The translations under genes and the position numbers were made by a program. This document shows, piece after piece, positions 1 to 63,743 of a stretch of DNA of 64,000 nucleotides. Origin of the DNA: Taxawa tesnikishii (nom. ined.) (Eukaryota > Ascomycota > Dothideomycetes > Dothideales); the NCBI GenBank assembly GCA_030247885.1, contig JAPDRO010000007.1:565501-629500 (forward strand), read 5' to 3'. Within the stretch, counting starts at the first letter, position 1; each line of letters starts with the position of its first letter. The notes under the pieces are model-generated. The model searched no databases. It saw nothing but the letters and a program-made list of their open reading frames with translations, and was not told the origin of the DNA.

Positions 1-3000
1 TGGAAATGATGATCCGATGGAGGGACGACGGGTTTTTCAAGAACCGCAGACTCGGAAACTGCCTGATTGTCTCCAGCCATTTGTTCTGGAAGGGGCGAAC
101 GGCTCACTGGAGTAGGAGTTGGCGACCGGTCGCGGAGTATCGTAGAATCCGTGGTAGACGTGGACTGATCGAGTACCGGCTCTGCCACCCATTCAGACGG
201 TTGTTCTTCAAAGGGCGTGGCAAATACTTCGGCTTCCCTCTCTGCAAAAGGGGTCTCGAAGGGAGTTGTATCCTTAAATGGTGTGGTGCGTTCGACCATA
301 GGAGTCGCAAAGATGTCCTCACCAATATCTTCCACTATAGCTTGGGGCGATAAAGGGTCCTGGACCTTTGATTCCGTAACGTCGACAACTTCGGGATCAA
401 CAGAAGAGGTTACCGCTGCTGGAGGTGCTGCACCTGTAGCGTTGGTATGGGCGATACTATCTTCATTGGGAGCTGCTGGCTGGCTTGGCTTTGTCTCTCC
501 GGTTGCAGGAGTTGGTTCTTCTTTGATGGGTGCTGCAGCTGTTGGCTCAACCAGAATGTGCTTCGTGACATCGGCGGACTCAGGAGGCGCAGATACATCA
601 TCGGGTTGTACCTCCGTTGCTTCCTCCTCACGATTGCTCTTTCTGCCTTTCTTGCCCTTTTTGTCTTGACTGGTGCATCCCAAAGATCATCCGGATCCTG
701 CTCAGGTACAAGAGCAGCTTCTGCTGGCGATGCTGTTGGGGCGGTTTCTGTCGATTCTGGCTCAAAACTCTTCTCGTCAACAGGTGTGGCAACAGGCGTC
801 TCTTCTTGGACAGCTCGCTTGTTCTTCTTGCCCTTCTTGCCCTTCTTAGTGCTAGTTGGAGCCCAGTCCACCACTTCTTGGTCTGCAGCGATTGATTCGG
901 CATTCAGTGATTCCGCCGCAGATGGAAGCTCCTGTTCCGTAGGTACGTCCTCTAATGGTGGAGCTTGGCTTGCTTCCTGTACAAATTCATCGGCCGGGAC
1001 AGGTTGTTTGTTCCTTTTCCCCTTCCTGCCTTTCTTGCCGGTTGGGGCAGCCCAAATATCTTCCGCAGTGACATTCTCGGTTACCGGCTCAGTTGCTGTG
1101 GGTACGGCAAGAACATCAACTGCCTTCTCGAGCTCAGCGGTAGATTCGGGATGCTCAGGCTGCACAATCGTCTCCAGCAGCTCCACCTTATCGCTTCCCT
1201 CCGTAAAACTAACTGCAGGCTCCTCGGTAACGAGCGTGGAAATGCCGGATCCTTTCTTCCCTTTCTTGCCCTTCTTCGCTTTTTTGCCGGAAGATCGAGC
1301 CCAAAGATCGTCGGTAGATTCTAGAGCAGGTGTTTCAGGAAGTGGAACGGACCTCGCTCCTTCCTCCTCGAAAGGAGTTGTACTCTCCACATATTGGGGC
1401 TCTATGGAGGCCTCGGCATCTCTCTCAACAGAGAGCGAGTCGGCCGAGGGTTGATCTTCAGAAGGACCTGACTCTGGGATAGGCTCGAAGTAGGTACTGG
1501 ACTGCCTGCTTTTTTGCCCTTTTTCCCTTCTTACCCTGCGATAGCGCCCACATATCCTCAACAGTTTCCGAAGCCGGGGTTGCTGGAAGTGGTACACTCG
1601 CTGGCTCGACTCCGTCCTCACGGACCGCCATCTGTTCTGCACCAAGGTTTGTTGGAGTGTCTGCGTTGTCGATGAGTAAGTCTTGATCGTTGAGTGGTGT
1701 GGCTTCAAGAACAGTCGTTCCAACAGCAGATTCGGATGATTGCTTGCCCTTTGTGCCCTTCTTGCTTTTTTATCTTTCGTGCTGGTCGGCTGCGTCCAAA
1801 TGTCTTCCGTTGACTCTGAAGATGCGGGCTCGTATGATGTGGCGTCGTCTGCGGCCCGTACTTCTTCTTGCTCATGAACTCCCACCGATGGCTTCACTGC
1901 AGACTCAAGCTCGTTGGTTGGTACATGCACATCTGCGTTGGGCTCCGTCAAAGGTCCGGAAGCTTCAGGTGCTTGACTCTCGGGCAACGGTGCGACTGCT
2001 CTTTCTTCGACTTCAGAGGCTATATTAGACGGAGGGTCTTCGATTGGTTTAGCCAGGCTTTCCTGCGAGACAACCAGCTGATCCATTGACTCAGAAGCAG
2101 GAGTTTCAGGCAGCGGAACAACTTGCGCTTCCTGCACTTCAGTAGGCGCCGCTTGAGTTTTAGCTGAAGTTGGTGATGCACGTTGAAGGCTCTCAGATGT
2201 TGCAGACTCCTCAGGTTGTTCTTGAGTAGGAGGGGCCTCGTTCTCAGTTTGTTGAAGTTGCTCCGAATTCACGTCGACAGCAGGTTCGGCTTCGTTGTGC
2301 TGCTCCAAGTCTGTAGGCACGTTCACAGGAGCATCGGCATCTCGTAGAACAGCGGAGGTCTCAGCGCCCGTCTCCTCAGGTTCAGGCACAAACACAAGAG
2401 CAGTCTTCTTGGCCTTCTTGCCTTTCTTACCCTTCTTAGCGGGTTGGGCCCATGGATCTTCGGCCTCTTCAGGAGCGGGGTCTCCGGAAGTGGAACATCA
2501 CGGGCGAACTCTTGTTCCTCCGCAGCGGGTCCAGCTTCCTGTTGCGGTTCTAGCGCTGCACCCTCGTTCGGCACGTCAGGGATGATGGCCAGTTCTGATG
2601 TTGCTACGCTCTCTGAAGCAGCCTTCTTGCCTTTCTTACTCTTTTTCGCTTTCTTTGACGGCAAGGCCCAGACATCTTCTGCGGCTTCGGCAGCTGGCGT
2701 GTTTGCCGCTGGCGTCTCGGGAAGAGCAACTTCTTGTGCAACTGCTTGCTCGTCGTCATCAAGTGCAGGAGTTTCTGAGGGCTCCGGGGTACAGTAGCAC
2801 TAGACTCCAGTTCGACTGCAGCAGTCTCGGTCACGATTGGGTCAGTGATGGTGTCTTTCTTACCCCTTTTTCCCTTCCTGCCTTTCTTCGCAGAAGGCAA
2901 AGCCCAAATATCCTCAGCTTCTTCAACAGCAGGGGTTTCTGGCAGGGCTATCTCTTGTGCAACAGTCTGTTCGTCTGGATCAGCTGACACACCTTCCGAC

Positions 3001-6000
3001 GGCGCCACGTGTGCTACTGTCTCTGGCATTGAGTCGACTGCGACGGGGTCCGCAATCTCTGGCGTAAGAGTACCCTTCTTGCCCTTCTTTGCCTTTTTCC
3101 CCTTCTTACTTGAAAGCAGAGCCCACTCGTCCTCGGCGGCCTCCGCAGCGGGCGTTCCTGGCAATGGTGTCTTCTCTGCTAATATCTGTTCTTCCGGCTT
3201 TATGAGCACAGACTCTTGTGGCTCCGTTGGCATGACCTCACGTGCCCGGTCACCGTTGTTGTCATTTGAATCTTGAACAACTGAATCTTCAAACGCGTTC
3301 TTCTTTCCCTTCTTCCCCTTCTTGCCTTTTTTGACTGGCACCGCCCAAATGTCTTCGCTGACGGGCTCTGAAGGTTCTTCTGGCGCTGCCTGTTCGGAAG
3401 CCGACACGGGAGCGGCCACATCGTGAGCGGACTGCTCTTGCTGGGGATGTGAATCAGAAACGAAGTGCTGTAGAACCTCTGGAGCTTGGGCAACGTCGTT
3501 GGTCGGGGATTGCACATGGCTCTCATCTGGTCGGTCGGTGCTGACAAGTTCAAGCCTTGGATCATCACGTGATATGCCGGACGAGCTCTCAAGCTGCTCA
3601 CTGGTCTCACTCCTGGCCCCCAACATAGTAGTGTCAGGGTGGAGGAGAGGTACGGAATGGTCTGGGGGGTGGTCTCTACTGTCTCGACTTGTTCAGGAAT
3701 GGCGGTGAGGACAGGGTTGTCGTTGTGTTCCGCTACTGCAGGCTCCATTTGAACTGAGTCATCGACGAATGAGGAAGTTGTGGGTTCCTCTTCTGCAGCA
3801 ACAACATCGGATACCAGAGGCGTTTCATGCGATTCACTCATTTCCATCAGTTTGTCGAAAGTTCGGGTTTGCGAAACAGTCCCTGGCTCTTCGCGCGAGA
3901 GTTCCGGTACGCTTGTTGCCGGAGCTGCAAACGAGGCCTCAGCTGCGGCAAGAACAGGTGTTGCTATTTCGCTTGCTGCCGCTGGCAGGCTGGTTTTGCC
4001 CTTCTTTCCCTTCTTTTTCTTCCTTCCTCCGAAGAATGAAGGGAGCCATGAGCTGCCTGTCGTCTCCTCTTCCTCTTCTTCGGCTGCGGGTGGCTCCGGA
4101 GCATATATAGCTGCTATCACGCTCTCTGTAGGACGAGACCCCTCTAGCTGCTCTGGCCCTCGGGCAACCGCGGGAGGAGTTGGGATCTCATCTGCCTTAG
4201 TTCCAGATATGACTGGAGTTTCGCCTGCCGACACACCGACAGACGAAACATCTGGCTGAGCATTGCTGGGAGCTTTGTTCTTGGCTTGTAGCTCATCAAG
4301 TGCTGGCGGTTCAGTATCTGTCTTTCGATTATCAGAAAGTACTAAAGAAGCAGCGGCCGGATTAGCAACAACATGCTCATCAGCCTTGGCCGCTTCAGCG
4401 CGGGAGAGTTCTACAGCAGGCTCAACTAGGCCTTGGTCATCTTCCGGTACAGCTACTGCCTCCGGCCACACTTGAGCTGGCTCAGGTGATTGTGTTCCTT
4501 GCTCGGAGACTGGAACGTTCTCTTCGACCGAGGGGACGATCTCTCGCTGAGCTTCTTCATATGGCGTCTCTGGCAGGGGTACAGTGGCAGCGTCTCCGGT
4601 GGTCACAGCCTCAGCTCCAGCGGGTTCACGCTGAGGTGTCGCGGAAGGCTCCTCCGCCCAAAAGTCAATCTTCTGCTTCTTCTTTCCCTTCTTGGTGGGT
4701 ACGACAAATTCGGCTTCCGCCTGCTGTTCTGGCTCAGCCAGCTGTTCTCCAGGGACTGAAGTCTCTGGTACAGTGGCTTCGACCGCTTCATCTGGGATCG
4801 CTGAAGCACCAGAAATTTCCGGAGCGGGTGATTCGGCGACTGGATCGTTGGCCCACGGGTCTGGCTTCTGCTTCTTCTTGCCCTTCTTACCCTTCTTGGT
4901 AGGAACAGTAAGTTCTGGTTCTGGCTGCTGTTCCTGACTAAGTGGTGTTGCGAAAGCGGCAATATCTTCTACGTCGGGGAATTCAGATACAGTATCAATG
5001 TCGCGCTGCTCTTTAAAGGGGGCTTCTGGTAGGGGAGCTTCGATTATGTCGGTTGGGACAGCAGGGAGAACAGCGTTGTCCAGAACAGCGTTGTCCAGAA
5101 CAGCGTTGTCCAGAACAGCGTTGTCCGGATCAGCTGGTGCCGCAGCGGAGTCTTCAAATGGCGGATCCCGCGTTTGCTTCTTTTGCCCTTCTTGCTCTTC
5201 TTTCCGTGAACTGTGAACTCCGGTTCAGGTTGGTCTTCCACTTTGTTCTCATATGCCAAGAGGGCGCTAACAGCGACTTGACCACCCTCGATAGGTTCTT
5301 CGACCCATGCATCCGACTTCTTCCCTACCTTACCCTTCTTCTTGCGTTCAGCCTTCGTATATGGCATCGGGCCCGGATCTGCAACCAAACTGATCTCATC
5401 TGCAGCTGGCTTCTCGATGGTCGTAGCAGTGATGACATCTTCACCAGGGATTATTGCACGGTCAAGCCCGTCCTGAGTGGTTGTGTCGACGATATTCGCT
5501 GCGTGATCTCGAGCTTCAGGTTCAAGTACGCTCGGTTGGTCTGCTTGACTGCCATCGGAGACAACGTCTTCAGTGGGCAAACTTGAGGTCTCCGATTCGC
5601 CAGGAGCACGATCAGGCTCAGCCGGCAGAGGGGCATGGATAATAGCTGCGTCAGGAGTGGTTTCGTCAAGGGTGTTAGACCTCTGCTTCGTCTTGCCCTT
5701 CTTGGACTTCTTCCGGCTAAAAAGGGGTGAGGAGGGGTCGAGTTTTACAGCAGGAGTTGTGAGCGGTGACTCTGTAACGTCTTCAGTCGGAGTCTCCAGG
5801 AGCGGGATCCATTCAGCAGTCGACTCTGGGACAGGCTGAGCTTCGTTTGCGCTTTGCAACGTCGCCGCTGATGCCTCTTCCGTGACTGGCTGCGCAGCGG
5901 GTTCAAACCACCCTTCCACCGCATCCTGCGCGTCTTTCTCTCTACGTCTTCTCAGTTCTTCGGGCGAGACCTCTGTTACCGGGGTGCCCGGCTCCGATGG

Positions 6001-9000
6001 TGAGGACGTACCCAGTCTAGCCGCTTTGCCTTTCTTCCCCTTCTTGCCTTTCTTGATCGAGTTGGCGCGGGAAACCATTGGGCGTTGAGGCTCTTGTTCT
6101 GCTTCTGGTTCCGGCGGCCCAAAACCTGCAGCTGCCATCTCCTCAGCAGTCGGCAATGCAGCATCGTCGTTGTCGCCTATGTCTCCCCAGATATCGCTGG
6201 CCAAGGGGTCGGGGTTCGAAGTGATGACTTCATGAGCGAGCATGCCTTCTGCTCCAACTGCAATAGCAGCAGCTGCTGCTTGAGTGATAGAGAGGTCTGT
6301 TTCGCTTCCTACAATGTCTGGGTGTTCACGAGGAGATTGCGGTTGGCTTGTCAGAGGGGCCTCAGCTTCAGGGATCTCAGAAGAATGCTGCGAGGGCTCC
6401 GCAGCCCTCTGGAATGATTGTTCAATAGTGCTCGATCCTTCCGGTGCTTTCTCACGCAACCTCTCTTCGCGTTCGATGTCATCCCAAGACCAGTACTCGG
6501 GCTGCTCTCGCTGCACCTCGCCCGGTGCGTCTGAAACATCGAATGGGAACTCGGTGGCCTTGGGCGTGGTCTGCTGGGAATCGAGGATATCATCTCTCGG
6601 TTTGAGACGATCAGGACTCGCGAAGGCATCCTGAAAGTCCACACTATGAACGCTCGAGTCAATGTCTTCGGCGGCCGATTGGTATTCCTCACTACCCTGA
6701 ATGCTGGAGGACCGGCTTGACGGCTTGCTTGACGGCAAACTTGGCAATTGCTCTTCCTCCTGGACCTCTGATGGTTTGCGGTTGCGCTCAAGCAAATACA
6801 GTGGCCTGAACTCTGTAGAACTTTTAAATTCGGTGGAATTTGGTCTTGGCTTCCGGCCTCGGGGAGTTGAAGGAGAAAGTGGAGCTTGGACAGGGGACGC
6901 ATCGAAGCTCAGTGACCGCTCTCTAGGGACGTTGGGAGACAGTGGGGTTCCCGGTCGGCGGAAACGGAAAGGAACAGCAGTGGACGAGACGGGCCGTAGG
7001 GGATGAGTGGCCTTCTGGGGGATACAGGTTCTTGTAGTGGCGACAGAGGAGGTGACCTAGGCAGTGGTGGAAGGTCGGAGACGCTGCCCACATCAATGGG
7101 TGATGAAGGTCGACTAAATGGTAAGGGGATCTGCGTTGCTTCATCGTCTTTGACGGACGACAAAGGTCGCGGTTCCGATAATGCTGGCAGATCTGCGGCA
7201 CTACCGGCAACGAGTGGCGAAGACAGTCCGCTCATTGGCAAAAGAACTCGAGCTGTGTTCTCTGTCGTAGGAGGCTGAGTAAGAGGAGATTCTGATGGTA
7301 CGGCAGAATCACCGCTCTGTGTCTGTAAAAATGCGAAAGAAGGCTCTTCAACCTGTTTACGGTCTGTTGCTTTCGCTCTAAGGTTCTTCGCCTTCTTCTT
7401 GTCTTTCTTCGACAGGGTCGCCGGAATTGTTGCAGGCGCGCCTGCTGCTGGCTCAGCGAGGAGGACATCTCCACCGCCAGGCGATTGTCGAGTGGCTTCG
7501 ACATCATTGGATGGCTGTGAAAGCGGCGTAGCAAACTCTCTGTCGAAAAGATCTGAAGCCAGACCACGATCAATCGGCGCTGACTGTCCAAGAGCCGACT
7601 CCGGAGCCAAAGTCGGCGAGACTGGGTTGCTGGCGGGCAGAGGTGGAAGCTCCTCATCCTCTACCCGCAGACCTAAAAAGACTGATCACGGCTTTTGCGC
7701 TCATCGCTTGCGGCCCGATCCTACTATCATATAAGCATCTTTGAGAAAAACCTGCAGACTGGGACTAAGCAGGAAATGGGGGTTCTACCTTGTCACCTCG
7801 GTATCGGACATCCTCACCTTCATCTTCGTCTCTGTGTCTGTGCTTGTGGCTACGCCTTGATGAGCTGGAATAGGCCGAGTGGGCATCGTCGTCGTCGCCG
7901 GCCGCTGATTCGTCTCTGTGGCGGTGGCGCTTTCGTGAATCTTCGTCGTTGTCGACGCTGTCGTCACGGTGCTCATGCTTGTGCTTACGCCTTGATTCAC
8001 CTCCAAGTGGCTCGTTTTCAACATCCCTTTCTCCGTGGTGTCTTGAGCTTGAGTGTCTGGAGCTCGACGCTACGCTTCGGTCGTCGTCGTACACGTCAGT
8101 ATCGCCCCTTGTGTGGCGACGGTGTCTTCTCCTGTGCTCTTTGTCGCTGTCACGGTCATCCTCACGCACTTCCGGCTCATCAACAACTGATTTCGTGTCG
8201 CCGGACTTGCGGCGGAAAAGGCCAAACAACCCCCTTCTTCTTTTCCTTCTTCGGTTCGTCGTCCTCATCGTACTTGGAACGCGAAGAACGTGCGGAGACA
8301 ATCGAAGCGGCGTCGTTGAAGTCCCCGCTTTCACGCTTCGACTTCTTCTTCGACTTGCGCGAACTCTCATGGACGTCCGCAGGCTCGGACGCCGCTACTG
8401 ATCTGTCACGTTCCGGAGAGGCATACAAATCACCGTCGCGATAGGACTTGCGCCGATGCTTCCTATCTCTATCGTCGACTGGAGCAGAGACGACAGATTG
8501 AACGTCTCGTTCTAAGGTTGGCGAGGCAACCTCAGAGCCGTCGCGCTCGTCATAAGAGCCGTCTCGTCTCGACTTCTTCTTCTTTGACTTCTTCGGTTGT
8601 GAAGGCGTGACATCCTCGACCGGTTCCTCTTCTACAGGCTTTGCAGGGGACGGGATCGTTTCCTCCCAAGGTTGTTCCTCATCCATTTCATCGGCCCAGC
8701 TCGTGCCAGTGGCGCCGAGAGCATTGTCCAAAGAATAGCGATCTGAGAGTTTGGGTTCTATGGAACGTGCGGTTTGCTCTTCCTCGTAAATGGACTCCGG
8801 CTCTTCTCTGATCGGCGCCTCTGCAGGCACCGTGACAGGCACCTCGCTGCCAATGTAGTCATCGAAAGCGATTTCCGACCGCAGGGGCGAGCTAGCGACC
8901 GGTGATCCGAATCTTCCACTGTTGCGCTTCTTCTTGTCCTTCTTCTTGGGCTTTACGACATCAGCAAGCTCATCAATATCGTCAAAAGCCCTGCTAGGTA

Positions 9001-12000
9001 TTGATACCCTACGCATCTCATCAGATGGACTTGCCAGTTCCCGAGCTTCCTCGGGTGGCGTGGGAGGAAGGGGTTGGTCTACAGCAGGCTCGGAGTCATG
9101 CGCTGAGCCTGAAGAATGTTCATCAACTAAGACAGCCGCGACCGCCCCACCAGCAAACAGATCAGAAGCAACATCACCTAAGCTACGTCGCTTGGCCTCC
9201 TTTTCGCGCTTCTTCCTTTCCTTGCTGCTCAAGGGCATCTCAAAGTCATCTGGTCCGGCTGTACTGACAATTTCATCAGTAGGCGGCGTTGTAAGTGCGA
9301 TGTCTTCCTCGAGCAGTGCTTTTCTAGCGGCTTTCTCGCGCTTCTTACGCTCTTTGCTACTCAGGTGTACTCCAAAGTCCTCCTCTGCCGCACATGTGGA
9401 AGGATCTTCAACAGGCAGAATCGATGGCACAGGCTCCTCAACAAAAGCGTTTGTCTTGACTGCCTTGTCACGCTTCTTCTTTTCCTTCTTGCTCAAGGGA
9501 ACTTCAAATTCAGGCTCAGGCTCTGGGGTCGCGGCAGCTACCTCCTCGTATGGAGTCGCCGGCGCAGGCTCTTCTTCAGGCAAGTCACGCTTGGCTGCCT
9601 TCTCCCGCTTCTTCTTTTCCTTCTTGCTGAGTGGGACCCCGAATTCCGGTTCCGGCTGGGCGTAGGCAGATTCGGATGGCTGAGGGAAAGGCGATGGCAC
9701 ATCTTCCGCCGCAGGTGACGATGGCCATGAATCTGCTTCAGAAACACCGCGCTTCGCAGCCTTGTCACGCTTTTTCTTGTCTTTCTTACTGAGGAAGAAG
9801 TCTGCCTGCTCCGCTGGTGGCTCTTGAGTTTGGACGGCACCTTCAAAGATTTCCTCAGCCAGTGGAGTAGGAACAGGCGGCGTGAAGATCTCCTCGTCGA
9901 ATGCAGCGCGCTTGGCGGCCTTCTCGCGCTTCTTCTTGTCTTTCTTGCTCAGAGGAGCTTCGAACTCTGGTTCCGGCTCCAGCTCTGTGAACACTGGTTC
10001 AGGCTTGGGTTCTGGTACTGTTGCAGGCATCGCAAGCATGTCAGCCTCCTCTAAAGCAGCACGCTTCGCAGCTTTGCCCTTCTTCTTCTTATCCTTCTTG
10101 CTTAGCGGAACTTCGGGCTCTGGTTCCCTCAGAGAGGGTGTAGTAGCATCATCAAAGCCACCAGGAATATGAGGAAATTTTTCTTCTGCTGGGGTTGGTT
10201 CATCCGTTTCACCTTCGACGAACCCACGGACAGGTGGAGCACCTTCAGTGCCAGGCGAGTCCTTGCCAAGGTTAATGTCAGAAACACTCCCGAAGAACGG
10301 CGTCTGATAAAAGCCAGAGGTCTGCGGGAAGGGCTCTGTATCTCGCGGCGGCGCTCGCGGGATTTCTTCGATGGGAGTTTCGGGCTGCACCTTAGAAGTC
10401 GAAGCGCCTGCCATATCATGCTTCAGGTCTGGATGATACGTAGCCTTAGTAGTACCGTGACGAGGTGAGTCTGTCTCAACAACAATCTCATCGTACGCGG
10501 GCGGCTTGTCATCATGAGCGTGCTGCTGCGGGAAGTACTGATCATGGTAGGACATCGGCGTCTGAACCTCGTATACCCTCGTCTCGTCCTCGCCCCAGGT
10601 GATTCCTCGGCTCATTGTGGGTCTTTCCGCACTCGCTTTCGACGATTCGCCGGAAGTCTGGGGCGGAATGACCGGCGAAGCGACAGGCGATTTCTCGTCT
10701 TTCACGGATCCGGCCTTACTGGCAGGTGGAGTAGGCGCAATAACGTTGAGCTTTGGCACGGTGCTCCAAGGCAAGCGAGAGCTTCGAGCATCCATGTAAG
10801 GAGGGCCACTGGAGACGTGGTGATCGTATTCGACATCGGGTAGATTGTACACCTGGACATCGTTATCTCCAATTGGATCGGCAACGGCTGTCTTGCCCTC
10901 CGCTTTTTGTGCCAACAGCTCCTTCGGCGCGAAGAAATCAGCCTGGGACGGCCTGGGATCTTCCTTGTACTTCTCCTTAAGGTCCGCCAGCACCCTAGCT
11001 GTAGCCTCTCGATGTCTGTCCATATCGCTCTTGCTACGCTTCCGCTTGAAAAAGTCGGGGTCGAAGATGTCATCGTCCATTAGAGGTTCGCCGCTGTGCT
11101 CGCTCGTAGGCTCGATTGCCTGGGCGTGATAACGATGGTCGTGATCCTCTAGACCCTTCTTGTGCTCAGCACCAGCAAGGATCGCGCCTACAGTTGCTCC
11201 AGCAATCCCTGCTGCGACAGGAGCTTTCCATCCGTCTGTTGCCGTGGCTTCGCGCGCTCTAGACTCGAGCTCTCGGCGGCGTTCTTCGAGTTGGACTTCG
11301 AGCTCTCTCTCGCTGGCGTTTCTGGAGCTCCTCCAATTGCTGTCTCTCATATTGCTCCCTGTCGCGCTGCTCTCGTTGAAGTCGGAGAGTCTCGACTTGC
11401 TGAAGCTCATGCTGTTCGCGCTCATACTCCTCCCTCTCGGATTTCTCACGCTCATAGCGAATCGTCCTCTCCTCTTCTTCACGAACGGCAGCGGCCTTGG
11501 CGGCAGCTAATTCGCGGGCATGTCGCTCTTGTTCCCGCTGACGTGCAGCTTCTGCCTCTGCCTGAGCTTGTCTGCGTGCAGCAACTTCTCGCTCCAAGCG
11601 CTCAACCTTCCGCTGGCGATCGATTTCAGCTTGCTCCTCTGCTTCTCTCCTAGCAGCAGCAGCACGTCTCTCCGTCTCCTCTGCAAGTCGCTTCTCCCTC
11701 GCGTAGGCTTCAGTCTGCTCCTTTTCTCTTCTCATAGTTTCCAAGGCATGTCTAGCTGCTTCGTCTTTCAACGCCCTCTCGCGTTCGATCCGCTTTCTCT
11801 CCTCTTCCTCTTCCTTCTCCCTCTCGCGACGGGTTTCGCGATCTTCCTTCCGCTCCTCCTTCCGCGCTTGCCTCTCGGTGAGCTCAAATCGAACATTGGA
11901 TGGGCTATCGGCCTTGGGAGTCCAATTCTTACCACCTGCAAGGATGGAGGACGTAGCAGCCGCAGCAACGCCCGCGACTGCAGCATCACGAGCAAAGTGG

Positions 12001-15000
12001 CTCGTAATTGGACTTGACTGAGTCCGTCGAGGGCCCAGTGGATGTGGTGATGCAAATACGAAAGGGCCAGAAGGAGAAACGTAGGAAGGCTGCGAAGGAC
12101 CCTGCGTAGTATAGACACTGGGCTGCACAGGAGTCACGGGCTGCGGCTGCTGTATAGGCATAGGTGCAGAGTGGTTTGTTATGATTGGAGCCTCCGGTGG
12201 GAAAGCACCAGGTAGGGAGACATGTCTTGAATCGACGCTGTTCCTGTCCGACATGGGCATTGGATCCACATATTGCATGGGCGCTTGCATGCCGCTTGTA
12301 TCGCTTATCACACTCCCATGACGGAAAGGTGTCGCGGTGTTAATCGCACTGATTGCTCCGCCAGCCGCGGGAGCCGCGGAGGATTCAGCAGGGCGCGGTG
12401 GATAAGGCGGTGGAGTTGTTGACTTGCGCTTCTTCTTGCTGCCCCACCGCCAACCCCATTTGCTTGTACCTGACGATTGGGAACCTAACGAATCCACGCT
12501 TTGACGACGCACTGAAGCTTTGCCCTTGACATCGAAATCACCGAATGCAAGTCCAGAGGAGACACTGGATCCGTCGTCGAACTCGGATGCCGATTCCCAC
12601 GCATCCTCGTCCTGGCCAGAAGACTCGGCAACGCGAGTGACTCTACGATCGCGGTGTGCAGTTCTGTTTCTTTGTTCACGCACGGCAACAAGTTCAGGCT
12701 TGCGTGCCGAGTGCCTTGGGCCGCTCTTCGCAGCAGCAAGCGCAGCCGCTGTAGCGCTAATTCCTAGGAGCGTGGCGTTCAAGTGATCGTTGGAATTCTT
12801 CCCAGCTGTTCTCTTGGGGCTTGAGCGTCGCTTGGCGTAGCCTGCACCAAAAGCGAGAGCAGACTCGGCAGAGGAAGAAGATGCATTTCCAAATGTGAAG
12901 AATCCTGACTTCTTCCTACGGTGTTCCCGCCGCTTCTTCTCAGGCGATGAGAAAAAGCCGCCCAAGATTCCGCTACGCTGTGGACGCGCACTTTGGGAGA
13001 CGTCGACGTACGACTCATTTGGCAAACGGCGAGAACTGCGACGCGACTTGGTGCTACTGAATCCAAGGATTTCGCCGAGCCCGGGGCTGTGGCTGCGCGA
13101 CCGACTTCTCTGATGTCGCTTCACGAACGCACCATCAGGAGAATGCCTGCGGCCGTCTAAAGCGTGTCGTACAAATACTGGACTTGGAGAATGTTCCCGA
13201 CTGCGATCTTTGGGAACGTAGCCAGGTGCTTGCTTGGGTACAAGGACTCGCTCCTCTCTACCATCCTCGTACCGGACCCAAACGTATTCCGATTTGCGAT
13301 CATCCTTGATCACGCCTCTAGATGTGTGGCTCGTCCGGTCCGTAGAACGACTTCTGCTTCCACGATCTCGGTGTCTCGAAATTCTTGACGAGCCCTCATG
13401 CCGGCCTGACCTAACGCTGTAGGTATCGTCGAAACCCTTGTTGTTATTGAAAATCACGCCACCGACTTTAGCAAGACCATAGCCAGCAGCACCGGCTGCC
13501 AGTAAAGAAGACTTTTTGCGTCGTCTGTCGGTGTCTGATGAGTAGTATCTTGATTCTTTGTCGATGCGACTGTGCTTGTCACTACGCGCATACGATCTCC
13601 GTAACGAATCGCTGGAACGCTTCCTCAATGATTCGCCACTTGACCTCCTGTCATTGTAGTGGTGCCTGCGAGGTGCATCCGAGACAGAAGAGTAAGGATC
13701 AAAGCAGTGTTTGCAAACACCGATATACTCGGTGTACTCCTCCATTTTGCGTACATCCTCATGGTCTTTCCACCAATCGACGAACTTGCTGATTGGTCCG
13801 CGATGTTCGTGCTTCATAGTCATACCACCATGCGCATAGGGCGATGAGGATGGTTTACCAGCAAATGAGTGTTTTCCATTGGTGTGACCGTACGACGGGG
13901 GCCTGTAAGAGGAAAAGTTGTACTGCTGAGAATCGTGGTGCTGATGATGCTCATGTAATGCGTAGGCTCCAGCCGTCAAACCAGCTGCTCCTGCTGCGTA
14001 TGCCGGAAGGTTAGAATTTGTGTGGAAGGGGGCTTACCTGGGTAGTGGGGCTTGCTGGGAGGCGGTGAAGTATGATAGGCAGCCGTTGGTACGACAGGTA
14101 CCGATGAAGAATGAGCGTAGGATGGACGAGCCGCGGAGGTGCCACCAAAATGTGCATTGCCATCTTGCTGGTATAATGAAGTACTGGAACTCTGCTGGTC
14201 GTATGACAGGGAGGAATGATGTTGGCTACCCATTGCATATCCGAGAATAGCACCTGTGGCGGTGGCTGCAACTGCACTACCAGTACTAGGCGCACTCGTC
14301 CTTGGAGGTTTGCTGCCACCCGCTTCAATGGGTCGAGAAGGTCGTGGAGGCTTCGCAGGAGGTAGTTCAGACGGTCTTGCAGGTTCAGTTGGTGTGACAG
14401 AGGAAGCTCCGCCATAGAACTCAGCAGCGCTTCCATGGCCCGTTTCCTCTGGCGGAGCAGCTACATAAGACGCTGGCCTGAGGTGCGGCTCCGCTCCAAC
14501 AATGAGGGGAGGTGTTGCTGGGCGCACGCCAGGTTGACTTGATATAGATTGACCCTGATCGCCGTAATAATCGGCAGCTTCTCCATATCCAGTAGCTCCG
14601 CCTGCTGCCCCATTGGGGCGGAAGGCCGGCGCGGAATACTGTGCAGGGTCCTGGCCTGGGAACTGGTCTTGCACATGCGAAGACATGTGCATTTGGTGAT
14701 GTTGGGATTGAAGTCCAAGTGGCGTCTGGACATCCTGGCCAGGGAATTGACTGAACCCAGGCGCGCCGACCTGAGCGCTGAAAGCATCGAAACCGCGGGA
14801 TCTTTCTTCTGGTGACTCCAGACCACGCTCGCTGACCAGTACATCCTCAGTCCTGGGCTTGGTCCGATATTCTTCACTTTGCCTGTCCGAGCGATCACGG
14901 GGTTCCTTCCTTTCCTCCCTCCGCTCTTGCCTTCTTTCAGCCCTGCGCTCCTCCCTCCGTTCTTCCCGGTCGCGGGATTGGCTGCGCGATCTGTGTTTTC

Positions 15001-15403
15001 TGTGCCTCCTGCGATGTTCGCTTGCCGAAGCCCTACTGCGGGCTTCACTCTTCGCATCCATGTCTTCCCAGGCGTCTTCTTGGGCACTCAATGTCCGAAT
15101 TGCGCTCTCAGTGAGAGATTGGGGTCGAGATGGAGCAAACTCGTAGCGCTCGCTCGTTCTGGATGTTTGCGCAGTGTGAAACGAAGACGGTTCAGAGGAA
15201 CCGGCTGTGTTGGCATGAGTGCGACGAGGAGTTGATGGGTTTGCTTCGTAATGATCGGCAGAGCGATCTTCGGCACGAGGTGGTTTGCGAGTAGATGAAG
15301 AGGATACAACGGACTCTGCGCGACGGCGCGAAGAGGAGGTGTCGCTCTTCTTTCGATGAGATGACGAGCTGCTACTGCTCTTGCCGCTTAGAAAGCTGCG
15401 CAT
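1..15403 (-). CDS. lah: Leashin-like Woronin-body tether (giant 'involucrin repeat' protein), 3' end outside window
   Basis: About 5,000 residues lie in the window and the reading frame is open at base 1. The chosen ATG (15403) gives MRSFLSGKSSSSSSSHRKK, a Ser/Arg-rich start; an ATG 34 codons upstream adds an unlikely leader. In order: a charged head; a compact segment with WWKDHEDVRKMEEYTEYIGVC and CFDPYSS (about 13690-13790); an Arg/Glu-rich coiled coil (11290-11880); an SKKEKKKREKAAKR array; a central block with TAVPFRFRRP and STEFRPLYLLERNR (6780-6990); then KKGKKGKK/DIWA modules. Clear introns are 13994-14037 and probably 7673-7796. In this family (Neurospora LAH, Aspergillus 'involucrin repeat protein') the protein ties Woronin bodies, the peroxisome-derived septal plugs, to the cell cortex or septum. 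Family assignment rests on architecture, size and remembered motifs. The frame breaks about eleven times, mostly at homopolymers: 665, 1512, 1522, 1767, 2478, 2787, 3638, 5182, 6986, 8232 and 11307. Confidence 0.8.
640..6060 (-). repeat. W/KKGKKGKK module array inside lah
   Basis: About 18 imperfect copies of a coding unit spaced roughly 150-300 bp apart. Consensus is PLPETPAxExxEDIWAxP followed by KKGKKGKKGKK, with acidic spacers. Lysine blocks are seen near 655, 830, 1030, 1270, 1520, 1760, 2420, 2645, 2880, 3095, 3320, 4010, 4690, 4885, 5190, 5335, 5705 and 6040. Most have an aromatic W two to eight residues before the lysines (DIWAVP, DEWALL, DIWALP, DVWALP, DPWAQP, DLWARS, DIWAAP). Lysine is almost always AAG, so the coding strand carries long purine tracts. 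Confidence 0.9.
5068..5127 (-). repeat. 15-bp tandem repeat, 4 copies, in lah
   Basis: Four head-to-tail copies of GAACAGCGTTGTCCA; the last copy differs at one base. On the coding strand they encode four copies of the pentapeptide DNAVL. The near identity of the copies implies recent expansion or homogenisation. Confidence 0.95.
9185..10125 (-). repeat. SKKEKKKREKAAKR array inside lah
   Basis: Seven copies of a 45-60 residue unit, each with PEPEFEVPLSKKEKKKREKAAKR-like sequence (variants SKKDKKKRDKAAKR, SSKERKKREKAARK), at about 10090, 9940, 9770, 9610, 9480, 9340 and 9210. Weaker lysine blocks continue toward 8240. Acidic/proline spacers separate strongly basic blocks. It differs from the downstream array in that the tryptophan is absent. 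Confidence 0.9.
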
Positions 15404-23234: not shown

Positions 23235-23673
23235 GGTGAGGTCACGCTCGCGCTCAGTAGCGGCGTGGTATGTTGTGGAGTAAGAGAGATGTGAGGGATG
23301 AATACAGTATAGATGTCTTATGATTGCTTGTCTGCCTGCGCGCGGAACAGTTTCTGTGGGAAAAGCTCGGGGAATTGCGGCTCTGTTGCACAATCGATTG
23401 AGCGCGGGATGACTTCATGATGCAGGAACCCGCTGTTGCTAGTGTGGATATTGACATGTGAATACATGAGAAATCGAAGTCTTTGGGTCATCAACACTCT
23501 ACAAAAGGAAGGGCGACTCACTCTGCATTACCCCGGCGTGCCTTGGTACTTGTTCCTGCAGCGTTTGAGCTTCTGAGGTTCGATACGTCCTTCATCACAT
23601 AGAGAGCATATATCCTTGTACGAGTGGAGTCCATCTACACCCCCAATTCTTTGCTATCTGCAGAGTCCCGGAC
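23235..23673. promoter_or_regulatory. Divergent promoter, SPP2 / A-T-R enzyme
   Basis: 439 bp between divergent start codons. No ORF-like or repeated sequence stands out. Confidence 0.5.
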
Positions 23674-34980: not shown

Positions 34981-35043
34981 TACTACAATCAATCAATCAA
35001 CCAACTCAATATAACACAACCACAATACTCCATCTCTGATAAC

Positions 35044-46879: not shown

Positions 46880-46883
46880 CTAG
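46685..46883 (+). promoter_or_regulatory. TATA box, pyrimidine-rich leader and 21-codon ORF
   Basis: TATATAAA at 46685-46692 is followed about 130 bp later by ATG at 46818 in the context CCTACATGGC, after a C/T-rich leader (46765-46815). The ORF encodes 21 residues and ends in TAG at 46881-46883, overlapping the stop of the opposite-strand SET-like gene. It resembles the 5' end of a well-expressed fungal gene, but no gene body follows. Confidence 0.4.
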
Positions 46884-49584
46884 TCTTCATCCATGATCTC
46901 ACCCTCCTCCATCTCCATGGTCGCATCGTCGAGCATCTTGTCCTCGTCCTCGTATCCGACCATGCCACTGTTCTCCTCCTCCTCGCACGCCATATTGCCG
47001 TCATCTCCCTCGAACGTCATCATCGTATCCGCAACGTCCGCTTCCTCCGACCCTTCCTCGATGCCAGAGTCATCTTCCGCCTTGTAGACCGCAAGCTCAG
47101 CCTGAGTCGCCGATCTGATCTCCCGAGAAGCGAGTATCAGCGGCGTACCTTCAGTGATACAAACGACCTGATCCTCATCCATCGGCGTTACGCGCCCGAT
47201 TGGCGATGGAGGCGTGGAGTTCAGAGTCATGCGACTGAAGCTGGAGACTTTGCTATTCTCTTTCTTCGCAGCCTCGCGTCTGGCGGCAAGGGGAAGACAG
47301 AGGACTCTGCCGCCGCTGAAGCCGACGAGCTCGACGTTCGCATCAGAGACATCACTAGCGACGGACAGGAGACTGCAGAGGGGGTGAAGGCTGGCGTGCC
47401 AGATGGTCTTTCTCTCTTTCACTTCGCCGAAACTTGAAGGTGCGGATGACGTGAAAGACGTTTGCTGTGCAGCATTGGGAGCTCTGGTGAACCCAGAGCT
47501 GGAGCTAGGAGAGGAACTCTCGGGGCTGCTGTTATCGGCATCGTCTGCGGATGTAGTGCTAATGATCTTGCCGTCCGCATCGTATGCGATCGTCCAGCGC
47601 CAGGTACTGGACACCCGCATATGTGTGCCGATCAGGTACAGCAGCTTGTTGATGACCAAGCCATCGGAGCGCTGGAGTTGGAGGACAGAGTCAGGCTTGG
47701 TAGGGAAGCCATCAATGGCCTGCAAAAGCTGCAACGGCAGGACGACATGGGAGAGGTACGACCAAGCCACTACACACTTCTGCTCTGAACCGTCTGCCGG
47801 CGGAACTCCAGGAATGTCACAGGCGTCCAGGAGCTTGATGGCTGAAAGATCAAGCGGGTCGATCAATTCTTCGCCAGCCCAGCTCAGTAACTTCATTAGC
47901 AGCAGTGTCTGCAGAAGGCGCACATGGAATGGCGGTATGTCTGCATGGTCTTTGTCAAGATGGGTCTGGGCCATGTACTTTTTCAATCCATTTCTGTTGC
48001 ACAGGTGAGCATGGTGCATCCGCATAGCACGCTTGTGACAGTTGGATGAGCAGTAGTGAACATCTCCGTTACAGGCGGTGCAGATATGCAGGTCGGCGTC
48101 TGGCAGGTTATCTGGTGAGCTATAACGGGAGCCTCTGGGACTCAAAGCATTCGCAGGATGCTGATCAAACTTCACTGGAGTCTCCGGAAACCCTTCTGCC
48201 ATCCAATTGGCGATTTGAATAGCTTCTTTGGCTGCGATTCTGCTCTCGTCGAGCACCGGACTCTTGATGTGTTCGTCCACATTAAGGCTCGACAAGTCTT
48301 CATCCGGTGATCTTAGTGAGGGTGACGCGGGCTCTTTGGTCTTGACGTGGTAAATGCGGTCCCACAATTCTTCTGGTGTGTCCAAACGCGCATAGCAAGC
48401 ATCGCAGTAATTGATGCCGTCGCCCGCGTTTGCCGTAGACACGTACAAGGTCGTCGCTTCGGTAAAGATGATATCCGATGGGCGTATATCCTCTTTGCTA
48501 CAAGCGTGAAGCCTGCCGATGTCTCTGGTTTGATGATGGCGATCTTTGCATGAGCATCGAAGTTGCAGCGAATGATCTCGTTTAACCGTTGAACGCGGGC
48601 AAGATCTACGTCGTCACGACGCATCTTGTTCCTCATATCCCTCGGCACACACCGCGTTTCTAGAAGGGCGCGAAGTCCACTGGGCGTATGCGATACCAAA
48701 GCATCTTCTGAGGTAAACATGCTTTCAATGTCGAACATTATGTCATTCCCGAGCTTATTCAATTGACGAAGCTGGGATATATGCGTTAGCGAGTTTTTAT
48801 CCGATAGTAGAGCAATGCGGCGTGTCCAACAATACAACAGTCAGTGCTGTGAGTGCGTGTGAAGTTGGCATGGTGAGGCATTCCAGCAAGCAACGGACCT
48901 CTGGGGCGATGACTAACTGGAAATACAAGAGCAGTGTTTGAGAATGCTGGTAAGACTCACATCGTCAGCCCAGCAGGCAGCACCCAGTCCAGCATCATTC
49001 ATATCCAATGCGCTCTTGATTGCTCCACCGCCACACTTGGCAAGCGAGAAAACCAGCCTGTAAAGAGCCTTGCATTTAGCATCGTGAGTGGGATGGATGA
49101 AACCGTCGGGCTCTTTCGTGCGCGGTCGGAGTGAAGCGCGCTGAGAGATGCTAAGACGCCCTAGGTTCGCTTGAAGGGATACGCTGGGACAGCCCGGATA
49201 CGAGTACTTTTCTACATCGATGGTGAGGCGTCCAGGGTATGTTGCCAAGCGAGGCATTCGGAGGAATGTGGGTATCCTTGTCCACTTCGCATGCTTGTGC
49301 TTAGCGAGCAGACAGAGTTCCGCATAGGAGTAGATCTGTCTGGCATGGACATTGTTGGTTTCTCCCATCTCGGCATACAAACTGGCGATGAGTGCTCTTT
49401 GCGAATCAATGGCTGCGAGCTCAGGCAGGTCAAGCACGAGGTAACAGAGCGCTCGGTTGAGGAAGGCGGCCGGATGTCCGGGATCGATGTCGGTGAGAAT
49501 CTCAGTGTAGATCTCTAAGGCCTTCTTTGTACGTCCTTCGCACAAGAGGATATTGGCGCGTTCTAAGGGGGTCACATCAGCCAT
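46880..49584 (-). CDS. TPR / split-MYND / divergent SET-like protein
   Basis: 865 residues after removing introns 48917-48960 and 48772-48835. The N-terminal TPR-like repeats read ERANILLCEGRTKKALEIYT and AAFLNRALCYLVLDLPELA. A SET-like start follows (KIAIIKPETSAGFHACSKED, IIFTEATTLYVS). A zinc module is split: YCDACYARL, then about 105 residues, then ICTACNGDVHYCSSNCHKRA and HHAHLC. The usual SET motif NHSCxPN is not found; the region WHASLHPLCSLLSVASDV may replace it, and LILASREIRSATQAELAVYK resembles the SET C-terminal strand. It may therefore be an inactive or very divergent methyltransferase. The C-terminus is highly acidic (EEEENSGMVGYEDEDK). One base is missing near 48506-48510. Confidence 0.7.
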
Positions 49585-53070: not shown

Positions 53071-54838
53071 CTACAACTTCGCTCTGGGGCGATCCTCTTC
53101 TTCTTGTGCCTTGACCTTGAGCACACGCCTAAGGATCTTGCCGCTGACACTCTTGGGTATCTCGTCAATGAATCTCACGCCACCCCTTAACCTCTTGTGC
53201 TGCGCCACCTTACTGGAAAGCCACTGTACAATCTCGTCCTCCAACTCCTTTCCTGCCTGAACACCCTTCCGCGGCACAACGTACGCTCTAGGAACCTCAG
53301 TCGCCAAGTCCTTTTGAATATACCCAACACCGCGACATCGTCAATCTTGTCATGGCTCGTCAGAAGTCCCTCTAGCTCTGCAGGGGTACCTGGAAGCCCT
53401 TGTACTTAATAAGCTCCTTGACACGATCGGTGATATAGAAGTTGTTATCCTTGTCTTGGTAGCCGACGTCACCGGTCTTGAAGTATCCATCGTCAGTGAG
53501 GGCGTTCTTTGTCGCTTCGGGGTTGTTGTGGTAACCCTTGAAGATGTTCGGGCCCTTGATCCAGAGCTCGCCAACCTCTCCAGCAGGCACTTCTTTCTCC
53601 TCCGGCGACATGTACTTGGCGGTCATGTTAGGCAACAGGGTACCAACGGCGCCAATGGTGGAGTACCACACCTCCCAAGGCTGGGTGTGAGTAGTAGGAC
53701 TGGTTTCGCTGAGACCGTAGCCTTGCTTTACCTTCAGCTTCGTTCGTTGGTGCACAGCATCCACAAGCTCCTTTGTCAAGGGTGCAGCGCCGGAATTCAA
53801 CATGCGAATAGAGCTCAGGTCGTATTTTTCTACGACCGGGTGCTTGCTGAGAAGCAGCACGACTGGCGGTACGACGTAGCTGAAGGTAATCTTCTCTTCT
53901 TGTACGAAACGGCAGAAGTCCTCGATGTCAAACTTGGGCATCACGACGACTTTGTAGCCATTCCACATGCTTTGGTGCAGAATGACAGTGAGACCTGCAT
54001 TCCATGTAAGTGCTTGTTCCTCTTGTAATGTGTTCCCGTAAACGTACCGTAGATGTGGAAGAATGGCAAGAACGCCAATATGCTGTCTTCTGACGTCAGG
54101 TGCGACTTCTCTCCCGAAGTCACCTGCAAAGTGTTTGCCACGATATTCCTGTGGCACAGCATGACACCCTTTGGGTGACCAGTCGTACCGCTCGAGTACA
54201 CAAGGAACGCTAGATCCTTCTCTGGATCCACCTTCGTCCGGCGGTATCTCGTCGCCCCGCTGGTGTTCCGGACACTGGTGAAGTGCTTGATCTTGCCCTC
54301 AGGATCCCTCTTGTCGCCTATCAGAATGATACGATCTTCTGGTATGCCAACCTGCTTAGCCGCCTTCCTGACAGTCTCAATTACGGGCCATTGAGTGACA
54401 ACAGCCTTTGCTCCGGAATCCTTGAGTTGAAATGCAAGCTCCTCTGCAGTGTAACCAGGGTTGGCCGGTGACACGATAGCCCCGGCCCAGTGTGCGCCCC
54501 ATGTTATCGCGGGTGTGTCAATGCAGTTGGGTGTGAAGAGGGAAAGCACGTCGCCTTTTCGCCAGTCCCAGAGCGCTTTGAGACCTTTACCAAAGTCTGT
54601 CGCGGTTTCTCTAACTTGTTTGTAGGTGTATGACCTTCTGGTGTACGGGTCAAGGAAGATCTCTGTCAAAGTCCACAGTCAGTCCTTGTTCCTCCCAAGC
54701 TCCACAACAGAGCAAGCTGCAATTAATAGAACACTCACCCTTGTCATCCGAGAACGGCTTCTCCTTACGCTCGAAAAGGAACGTCCACAAATCGACGTTT
54801 GGGATATCAATGTCTGGGTATGGGGAACCGCTAGGCAT
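53071..54838 (-). CDS. Peroxisomal acyl/aryl-CoA ligase (4-coumarate-CoA ligase-like)
   Basis: 546 residues over three exons (introns 54663-54738 and 53995-54047). The ANL-superfamily signature is clear: AMP-binding loop LVYSSGTTGHPKGVMLCHRN, then FFHIYGLTVIL, GYGLSETSPTT, GELWIKGPNIFKGYHNNPEA, and YFKTGDVGYQDKDNNFYITD. The C-terminal domain has GFQVPPAELEGLL and the catalytic lysine motif PKSVSGKILRR. It ends in AKL, a peroxisomal targeting signal type 1. It should couple an aromatic or fatty acid to CoA using ATP in peroxisomes, feeding beta-oxidation or side-chain shortening. Two single bases are missing at GGGG 53383-53386 and TTTT 53312-53315; adding them gives VPPAELEGLL and GIFKKDLATEVPRAY. 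Confidence 0.92.
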
Positions 54839-57353: not shown

Positions 57354-59223
57354 CTTGTATGGCGACAAGGGAAAAGAGAACAAAAAACGGCCGTAGATCG
57401 AGCGTCGCTCTGGCCAAGAGCGCAGAAACAAGAGATTCGTAACCCGGAACGAGGATCGCCAGATATCCAGGAAATCCGGGTCTCACAAGAGATGCTGACG
57501 TGTGCTATTCAGGGCCGGCTGAAGGGAAGACTTTTGCATGGGCTGACTATGCAACGTAGAGGAGCGAAAATTGATTGACTGAGGGTGAGATCAGACCAGG
57601 CTGATGTTGTTGAATATGCAATGCAAAGAAAGGCGCGAACAAGACGGAGCGATAGAAGCGAAGGCGAGAAGATCCGGCTTCTCCTCACAACATGTCCGAA
57701 AGAACAGGCTTGGGGGACAAGGATGCAATCAAGATGCAAGATGCTTGTTACAGGCGCAGCCGTATGCAGGTGGAACGAGGAGGAAGAGCTGCCAGAGCCA
57801 TATGCAGGTGTCTCCACCGAGTAGAAAGGCCGGGTCGGGTGATGTTTGATACGAAGACACGGGAGAGGAAAATGGAGCAGAAGGTTGGACGACGCCTGAC
57901 TGATTGTCGATCGAGGCGAGGCTGGCTCGGGCGCAGCGAGCGGCGGGACGACTGCGTACTTAGCTGTTTATGGGCCAGAGTGGCTCTTATGTCTGACTAT
58001 GCCCGCTATGCCTGCTCCTTTTGCAGCATTAGTCGCTGCAATGCACGAGAGCGGGAAGAGAGGTGCAGAATCGACGTGCAGGGTGTCACTCAACCAGACC
58101 AATCAGATCTCGTGGCTGCATCTGAAACGCGCCTTGGCAAAGAAAAAGACCGTTAAACGGTCCGGGATCTACCTCGATTGCCCGCCGCCGTTAGATCCGA
58201 CTCATCGGCGAGCTTTTCTGGCACAATTCAGCGTTTCTACAAGTCTCATGTATGGAGAACCTCCCAGTTGTTCGGGTTGTCTGTTTGGAGCAATCGTGGG
58301 CAGGACGACGTCTGAATCTTTGCTCGTACCAAGTTGATTGGAAGGCCCTGCTCGTTCGTTGCACCATTGCAGGTAGCCGGGAGGGAGTCCGATCCATTAC
58401 TATATCACCACACGCATATCGGTTCTCGGCTCCTCCTGTGCTTGGCTTCTGCACAGCTTTTCGTGGGACCCGTTCGCTGACAGGACGGGTCTCGATGAGC
58501 CCAAGAAAGGAAGACCAGGGCTTCTGAACCCTCTTTATGACAGACGCTGGAAAGAAACGTCCGAACAGAGCTCACGACAGACGCCTGGAATACGAGTTTG
58601 GATCCATTCAAAATGAGAGACTTGCATTTCCGAATGGTACTTCTGAGTCAACAAGGTGCTATTACAAGGCAAGAACTCTGCTATGACTCCTGCATGCCGA
58701 CCAAAAATGTAGACATGGATCATATCATATTGCCCTGCTTGTCAGAGGTTACCCCAACGCCCCAAGAGCATCAACGACGAAGCAGGTCGGAGACCTGCGC
58801 AGAAATGGCTTCGAGTTGCAATGGTAACCTACCATCATTATGAAAGCTACCTCGAGTTTTGTACTCAACATCTCAATCTCTACACCGCGTGTCCCGAACA
58901 CAGCACCATATTGGGAAAGAAGGTGCTCGCGCCATCTTCTGTCTCTCCTGCTTCCGCGTGTCGAGTGCAGAGTGCAACGATACATAGTACACGCCGCTTA
59001 TAGAATAGGGTTTCCGACCGATAATCATAGTCCACACGGCCAGGCCATGCCCACAACGGAGGCCAGACAACTCGCGGTTTACGGCCAGTCCTTCGCCTCC
59101 TCCTCATCGACTTCGCTGTCCTCTTCGCTGCCCTTCTCCCCCTTCCCTCCTCTTTCTCTTCCTCGCTCTCTTGTTCGAGTGGTGTCCATCCCCTCTCTAC
59201 TTTCGGTAATGGCGGATCCAACC
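57354..59223. other. Gene-poor region upstream of the glycosyltransferase
   Basis: About 1.9 kb, expected to contain the glycosyltransferase promoter. Open frames are short, overlapping and without coding bias on either strand. I found no repeat, RNA gene or domain. Confidence 0.5.
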
Positions 59224-59648
59224 TCAATCTCCCAACTCAAACGACGAAGGCGTCGCCCGACTCATCACACACACCGAAGCGCATGTCCCCATCTTGCGCA
59301 CGTGCGGATAGTACATGACTTTCTCTTGATGCTCATAGGCCTCTTCACCACTCAGCTCGCCGTAGCCTCTCTTCTCTACCACTTTCGATTCCGGCTTGGG
59401 TTTTCGCACCCATTCAGCATCAAGCTGCTCGATACAAGCGTGATCGTTGTTGTAGATGATAAGGGCAGCATCGTTGGCCTTGGACAGTGATGTCCGTATG
59501 CCTTCGATGTCCCTTTCCGCGTTTCCGCCGGAGTCCTGAAAAGCGTGTGACCACGTAAACATGCTAGGGCAGCTGTTGCGACCGTGTAGGCTGCGCGGGT
59601 GCTGTTGTCGACTCGGGTGTCGATCTTCCGCTTCTCGTTGGATGGCAT
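59224..59648 (-). CDS. Small hypothetical protein
   Basis: About 141 residues. Two frames with gene-like codon use abut: the first begins MPSNEKRKIDTRVDNSTRAA and ends LACLRGHTLFR; the second begins DSGGNAERDIEGIRTSL and ends RATPSSFELGD. One missing base at the GG of 59535-59536 links them, the same signature seen in known genes nearby. No intron is plausible at the join. It is soluble and charged with no membrane segment; the middle reads EWVRKPKPESKVVEKRGYGE then LSGEEAYEHQEKVMYYPHVR. I do not recognise the family. Confidence 0.5.
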
Positions 59649-60058
59649 TCATTCATGGTCTTGTTTGGCAGGTCGTGTGCCCGTCAGGCCGTTTAGCCGA
59701 CGTGAAGTCGCTTGCTTGGCGCATCACGCTAACGCGTTCATCACATGTCCAAGATGGGCCTGCTCGGATCAGCCGGAAAACCTCTCCACTGAACCAACAG
59801 TCCGGCGGCAAAGCCGAGCTGTATACTGGTGAAAATCGTGAACCTGTATTAATGTTTACTAACATTCTCTGTATATACACGGTTCGTGGAGAAGGGGTTG
59901 GGGCAAGCTTGGCTATTCTCATAGAACAGTATATACCAACGTCAATTTAAAAGATACAATGACAGGCAGGTTAGCCATGAAACGCCGTACCCTTCCTTTC
60001 CCATCAAAGTTATCTAGTTCATGAACCGGATTGAGTAAGAGTTATAAATACAAGACAT
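59649..60058. other. Intergenic, FAD monooxygenase 3' end to small gene promoter
   Basis: 410 bp, AT-richer than its surroundings near 59830-60060. No gene seen. Confidence 0.5.
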
Positions 60059-62133: not shown

Positions 62134-63743
62134 ATGTCGAACCCTATACGTATTTTTGGTGTTGAAAGGGTCTGCATCATCGGTGCCGGACCGTCTGGCT
62201 TAGCGGCAGCGAAGTAGGTGCAGGGTCAGCCACCAACAGTCAGAGCGCAAAGTCCACAGCTGACATGGGATCAGGTATCTCCTGGCCGAGAAAGCATTCC
62301 GGCGCATCGATGTCTTCGACCAAAGAGCCAGGGCTGGCGGCATTTGGGATTATACACCCTCCTTGAAGTCCTCATCTGCTAACATGTCGGTACCGCAAAC
62401 AAGCCCCAACTGGGGCCTCCCAAGCCGACGTGGCAGCAAAGCGGTACACGGGAAGGGCTCTCGAAGAAACAGAAAGATGAGGGAGCATTTTTGAGTCCAC
62501 TATACGATAGGCTGGAAACGAACATACCGCGGAATTTGATGGGGTTCTCCGACCTGGATTGGCCTCAAGATTCCCAACTATTCCCGAAGCATGAGACTGT
62601 CGAGCAGTATCTGGAAGAGTACGCCGCGGATGTCAAGCACTTGATCAACTTCCAAACGCAGGTATTAGACGTAAGGCTAGCAGGGACAAAGGACGGAAAG
62701 CAGGCGCAGTGGGCTGTGAAGACGCAGAGCGTGCGACCAGACACTGACGGCAGAATTGAGGAACAAATATACGATGCTGTGATTGTCGCTAGCGGACACT
62801 TCAACGTCCCGTTCATACCAAACATCAAGGGCATTGGAGCGTGGAGCGAAAAGCACCCAGGTGCCATCTCTCACTCGATGTACTATGACAAGCCCGAGGA
62901 TTTCAAGGGACAGGTATGTACGATTCCAGACTCATTCGATGCTTAGCTAACGTTCGCGCGCAGAAAGTAGTGGTCGTGGGAAATGGCGCATCCGGATTGG
63001 ACATTGCTACGCAGATAATACAGTACTGCAAAAAGCCGCTGCTGCAGTCCCAACGGCGAGAGTCCTACCTGTCTGCAGGCCCTTCACCTAACAAGATAGA
63101 AAAACCGGAAATCGAGGAGTTCCTTCCAGACAATCGGGCCGTACGCTTCGCAGACGGCAGTGTCGAGAAACACGTCGACACCGTACTCTTTTCGACCGGC
63201 TACTTCTACTCGTTTCCCTTTATCACCGGTCTAGATCCACCTCTGATTGGTGACGGAACTCATGTCAAGAATTTGTATCAGCATGTTTTCTACAGATCAC
63301 AACCCACTTTGGCCTTTACAGCGTTGCAGCAGAGGGTGATCCCGTTCCCGCTCTCTGAGGCCGAGAGCGCTGTGATTGCACGTTTGTGGTCGGGACGCCT
63401 CACTTTACCCTCGGAAGACGACATGAAAGCGTGGGAGGATGGTGTCTACAAAGAGACCGGTGGTGGCCGAGACTTCCACCTTCTGCTATTTCCAAAGGAT
63501 GCGAATTACATTAACATGATGCACCAATGGGCAATGAGCGCAACGCATGGGGAAAGCAAGGGCAAGAAACCGCCATTCTGGGGCGAGAAGGAATACTGGA
63601 TGCGTGAACAATTCCCTGCGATCAAGAGGGCATTCCAGGAAAGAGGTGAAGACAGACAGAACGTCAGGACTCTAGAAGAGCTGGGATTTGACTTCGAAGA
63701 ATTCAAGAGGCGTAAATCGATAGAGGGCAAGAGTTTGCTTTGA
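62134..63743 (+). CDS. Flavin-containing monooxygenase (group B, FMO-like)
   Basis: 499 residues; introns 62214-62274 and 62914-62963. The FAD motif is VCIIGAGPSGLAAAKYLL near residue 13. The family fingerprint lies around GAISHSMYYDKPEDFKGQ, which precedes the NADPH motif KVVVVGNGASGLDIATQI. TVLFSTGYFYSFPFI matches the FATGY-type motif. FMOs oxygenate soft nucleophiles (N, S) or perform Baeyer-Villiger-like chemistry; substrate unknown. One base is missing at CCC 62419-62421; adding it reads LPKPTWQQSGTREGLSKKQK and joins the two halves. Its divergent arrangement with the group A monooxygenase suggests a possible shared control. Confidence 0.92.

Follow-up and report, generated by a model that had tools for sequence, protein, structure and literature searches.

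A 64-kb window of the Taxawa tesnikishii assembly, which is the whole stretch of DNA analysed here (C32:565501-629500, from a genome of 29.37 Mb in 34 contigs), holds a succession of genes whose reading frames are interrupted, and the question that it raises is whether these interruptions belong to the organism or to its assembly. A sequence-only reading of the window had proposed at least 23 frame breaks in ten genes, most of them single bases lost from homopolymers, and had attributed them to assembly error. Our analysis indicates that the breaks are true features of the assembled sequence, and that the organism itself very probably does not carry them.

Genes were predicted with a decoder that allows for introns and for frame steps of one base (missing or extra). 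It uses a periodic coding model of order 4, for which 99 kb of long open frames, partly the same sequence as that decoded, supplied the training set; step placement is limited to the overlap of open frames. Beyond the window, 20 stretches of 10 kb were sampled, one from each of contigs C1-C20. In control runs, 41 of 44 simulated losses were called as missing bases and the remaining three were not called, while 42 of 44 simulated gains were called as extra, with one uncalled and one receiving several calls; 44 ORFs 400 aa or more in length, totalling 76,869 bases and themselves used in training, drew three calls. Within the window the decoder misplaced the step of the CoA ligase, missed those of msnA and FMO, and made two false calls, at 23327, a suspect step that by eye reflects 5' over-extension, and at 54272, which an intron at 54047-53995 explains better than a break. 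The features concerned are the following, with the names lah, TUG and SET-like taken from the sequence-only reading.

410..15403, minus strand: lah-like giant gene, eight called frame steps
18046..21472, plus strand: MSH3 gene, two frame steps
30516..32271, plus strand: msnA-like C2H2 zinc-finger gene, zinc fingers matched, probable one-base-short step at 30738-30740
33218..34245, minus strand: txl1 (thioredoxin and PITH), one base short at C-run 33449-33453
35044..36691, plus strand: TUG gene, frame step near 36375 (decoder)
39094..41958, minus strand: csx2-like ArfGAP gene (BAR, PH, ArfGAP), frame steps near 39502 and 40755
46880..48720, minus strand: SET-like gene, step near 48501 or 128-nt intron
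53310..54838, minus strand: CoA ligase (AMP-binding), one frame step ahead of AMP-binding_C
53995..54047, minus strand: predicted CoA ligase intron, 53 nt, GTACGT..CAG, splitting AMP-binding at profile positions 214-221
59079..59652, minus strand: small gene, net one-extra step near 59233 (decoder)
62135..63743, plus strand: flavin monooxygenase (FMO) gene, probable one-base-short step at 62419-62421

Homology places two of these breaks precisely. In MSH3, the piece at 18663-19793 matches positions 7-344 of Msh3 chain 8r7e_B and the piece at 19667-21469, in another frame, matches positions 339-885, bearing out the claim that the gene is broken; the change of frame is pinned to the G-run of three at 19775-19777, where the frames overlap and an intron has no room. 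Frame and coding potential place an additional step near the C-run 18698-18701, 5' of the matched part. The txl1 break is likewise upheld by a PITH profile that runs from 4 to 105 in one frame and from 101 to 174 in the next, joining at the C-run of five at 33449-33453. In the CoA ligase, AMP-binding_C lies in a different frame from AMP-binding, which locates a step within 53527-53310, probably at the C-run 53383-53386 (the exact run being chosen by eye). This part of the claim for the CoA ligase stands, but the split within AMP-binding is likely due to the predicted 53-nt intron at 54047-53995, whose sequence would mimic a break.

For the remaining genes the evidence is more varied. The csx2-like gene, which likely also contains an intron at 40570-40622, and the small gene, for which no Pfam match was found, each carry steps called by the decoder. 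The breaks proposed in msnA and FMO are plausible by eye, and that in FMO is further suggested by an FMO-like domain beginning at about 62464 in one frame, upstream of which another frame gives only weak Rossmann matches (E 0.03-0.25), but the decoder made no call in either gene and the FMO site is not pinned. The TUG gene retains its frame step, whereas its TUG/UBX name found no Pfam match at E<=1; the same holds for the name of the SET-like gene, in which the decoder alternates between a break and the 128-nt intron. In the lah-like gene, the decoder placed one-base-short steps at about 666, 2483, 2787, 3630, 5183 and 7057 and net one-extra steps at about 8233 and 11421; those at 2787 and 8233 have candidate introns and the other six do not, while two introns called by the decoder (7682-7817 and 13994-14037) may be breaks instead. 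Three pieces of this gene were searched and gave no Pfam match. The extra G that had been proposed at 8230-8234 coincides with the call at 8233, but a candidate intron is also available there; the site at about 11307, where a lost GA pair had been suggested, shows up as the net one-extra step at 11421, where open frames overlap for 245 bases. The frame-restoring triple at 1767, 1522 and 1512 appears only when the break penalty is relaxed, and then as two steps, at 1764 and 1492. Two further genes of the window, interspersed with the broken ones, have no called step. The one at 23674-27025, judged by eye to be adenylate-forming-reductase-like, has two canonical introns; the other, at 37305-38552, is PEX10-like, with Pex2_Pex12 and RING domains.

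For the window, the first decoder run returned 19 steps, of which 16 are missing and 3 extra bases, and for the 20 sampled stretches 36 (30 missing, 6 extra). The window and sample together comprise 46 missing against 9 extra bases, a bias towards single missing bases of about 5:1 that exceeds chance (binomial p=4.3e-7). With a refined intron model, the window yielded 17 steps (14 missing, 3 extra), including eight in lah, two each in MSH3 and csx2, and single steps in txl1, the TUG gene (35-36.7 kb) and the small gene (59 kb); the sample yielded 31 missing and 6 extra, and 15 of its 20 stretches contained at least one step, ruling out decay confined to one region. A frame-consistent intron is possible for 8 of these 54 calls. 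The other 46 (39 missing, 7 extra, as judged by motif rules) have no candidate intron, among them 12 missing and 2 extra in the window and one doubtful call, L018:5074, that lies outside any overlap of open frames. Under the refined model, the window has one step every 3.8 kb and the sample one every 5.4 kb. In a count of complete decoded genes in the sample, 24 of 65 carry a called step, a fraction that ranges from 17/65 to 29/66 over six settings, false calls included. The presence of breaks in the window is supported by 17-19 decoder calls, two of them suspect, and by homology in MSH3, txl1 and, more loosely, the CoA ligase, but the total of at least 23 in ten genes was not confirmed site by site.

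Genes on which viability depends are broken in the same manner. RPB2, RPC2 and PRP8 are essential in yeast. The RNA polymerase III gene RPC2 (C7) matches positions 104-1011 of chain 5fj8_B, which we take to be the yeast chain, and then positions 1010-1147 in the next frame, with the join at a G-run of four (C7:204792-204795). The RNA polymerase II gene RPB2 (C23) matches 3h0g_B, presumably the S. pombe chain, over three frames (positions 260-363, 361-755 and 754-1158), with joins at a T-run of four and a C-run of five (C23:1666719-1666722 and 1667910-1667914), and PRP8 (C8) follows human PRP8 (3jcr_A) from 13 to 404 and, in a second frame, from 405 to 1300, joining at a T-run of three (C8:257201-257203). 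In the third polymerase paralogue the frame stays open for 1063 aa, and the decoder called no step there. No second intact copies were seen, the genome searches having returned one PRP8 and three such polymerase genes. Across the roughly 13 kb of essential genes examined there are four breaks (two in RPB2, one each in RPC2 and PRP8), all with joins exact to the residue. This frequency is similar in order to that of other genes, and the breaks seem blind to function, as is expected of assembly error and not of decay under selection. Chaperonin genes were also decoded, at nine loci, five with steps inside the gene (3 missing, 2 extra) and four without; introns and breaks are not distinguishable at these loci, the matches at L026 and L030 contain stops, and all chaperonin rows were excluded from the counts.

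The six tightly pinned breaks (two in RPB2 and one each in RPC2, PRP8, MSH3 and txl1) all fall on runs of at least three bases, and four of them on runs of at least four, in keeping with the claim that breaks occur mostly at homopolymers; among coding intervals of 5 nt, such runs occur in about 26% and 5%, respectively, although the comparison is rough in that the pinned intervals do not match this length exactly. Longer runs are also scarce in coding sequence. Over 131 kb of coding frames, there are 66 G/C runs of five and 2 of six, where synonymous-codon shuffles predict 150 and 34; for A/T runs the counts are 71 and 11, where the shuffles predict 119 and 29. The coding deficit is not proof, as natural genes may themselves avoid runs. 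A stretch total of 47.6 kb of noncoding-like DNA is also short of G/C runs of five (15 vs 25) and six (0 vs 5) relative to an order-2 Markov simulation, which argues against a translational explanation; A/T runs in this noncoding-like DNA are not below the same expectation and lend no support.

The involvement of MSH3 raises the possibility of a real mutator, in which mismatch repair has been lost, short runs shrink and genes are truly decaying. Loss of mismatch repair causes one-base losses at runs, which fits what is observed, but it acts mainly on runs longer than the 3-5 bases seen here, and the breaking of RPB2, RPC2 and PRP8 at a rate of similar order implies that selection does not see the breaks. 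We consider this scenario highly improbable. Very little likelihood attaches also to its elaborated form, a mismatch-repair-defective, MSH3-broken fungus with thousands of run-length losses real in its DNA that survives through intact copies in other nuclei or tolerant decoding. Pseudogene decay is not borne out: essential genes are not spared, and their open pieces abut, leaving no additional stop between the joins, and stay similar to solved structures.

Ribosomes that slip, through programmed or general frameshifting, could make breaks in essential genes bearable, but comparison by eye of the six pinned sites shows runs made of C, of G or of T, with contexts that differ and no shared slip motif, and G/C runs are scarce in noncoding-like DNA as well; real, tolerated steps are an extremely remote explanation. 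The mistaking of introns for breaks is true in part, as the segment at 54047-53995 of the CoA ligase very likely illustrates and as the 8 calls admitting a frame-consistent intron allow. As an account of all breaks it is ruled out by the 46 calls that lack a candidate (L018:5074 being doubtful), and the joins in the polymerases, PRP8, MSH3 and txl1 have no spare bases; introns would, moreover, be expected to produce both directions of step about equally. That introns underlie the general pattern has, in our estimation, hardly any chance of being correct.

Given that essential genes are broken and that a cell with such genes in single copy would not be viable, run-length undercalls are the best explanation, and the breaks are almost certainly assembly errors in which runs of one base have been called one unit short. 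The assertion that the assembly carries homopolymer undercalls is supported by steps in 15 of 20 stretches, the 5:1 bias towards loss, essential genes broken at runs and the shortage of G/C runs; against it stand the observations that about one step in six is an extra base, that A/T runs in noncoding-like DNA show no shortage, that the third polymerase paralogue is free of called steps and that the steps in five chaperonin loci are 3 missing and 2 extra. Introns, MSH3, the PEX10-like gene and contigs of up to 2.8 Mb together suggest a filamentous ascomycete sequenced with long reads, and we infer that polishing was absent or incomplete: a long-read consensus left wholly or partly uncorrected by accurate reads would have undercalled short single-base runs by one unit about once per 4-5 kb genome-wide, and the genes would be intact in the organism, with breaks existing in the assembly alone.

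Other aspects of the assembly were noted along the way. An 80-kb contig (C25), mitochondrial by a cox1 with TGA codons, contains this gene twice in opposite orientation with equal scores (30968-32308, minus strand, and 66840-68180, plus strand); the mitochondrial genome may have been assembled here as an inverted duplicate. A third cox1 lies in broken pieces on a 25-kb contig (C26:21652-22990, 500 bases of it in L048); between the two 500-base stretches compared, 365 bases are identical to the C25 copy and the following 45 carry 10 substitutions, resembling a mosaic or partial copy. One exact 18S rRNA motif was not found in the whole genome, and the assembly may lack the rDNA repeat or contain it in altered form.

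The gene models of this assembly are unfit for claims of gene loss, pseudogenes or odd splicing. RPB2 is a common marker gene in fungal phylogeny, and it is itself broken twice here.

Similar errors have been described in other systems. In nanopore-only assemblies of Drechmeria coniospora most errors lay in homopolymers and altered the frames of conserved genes, and short reads allowed them to be corrected (PMC7500977). That case likewise concerns a filamentous ascomycete with homopolymer indels that shift the frames of conserved genes, but polishing there produced more insertions than deletions, whereas the losses here outnumber gains by about 5:1. Since polishing in that case gained more bases than it lost, a bias towards loss is no fixed mark of such errors, and because the direction of loss or gain varies between pipelines, the bias does not identify a platform. 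The portions of the Homopolish paper drawn on here (PMC8011154) describe residual nanopore errors as mostly homopolymer indels that create false pseudogenes, the same class of error as that found in this assembly, although the data are mostly bacterial, with yeast as the sole fungal test in those portions.
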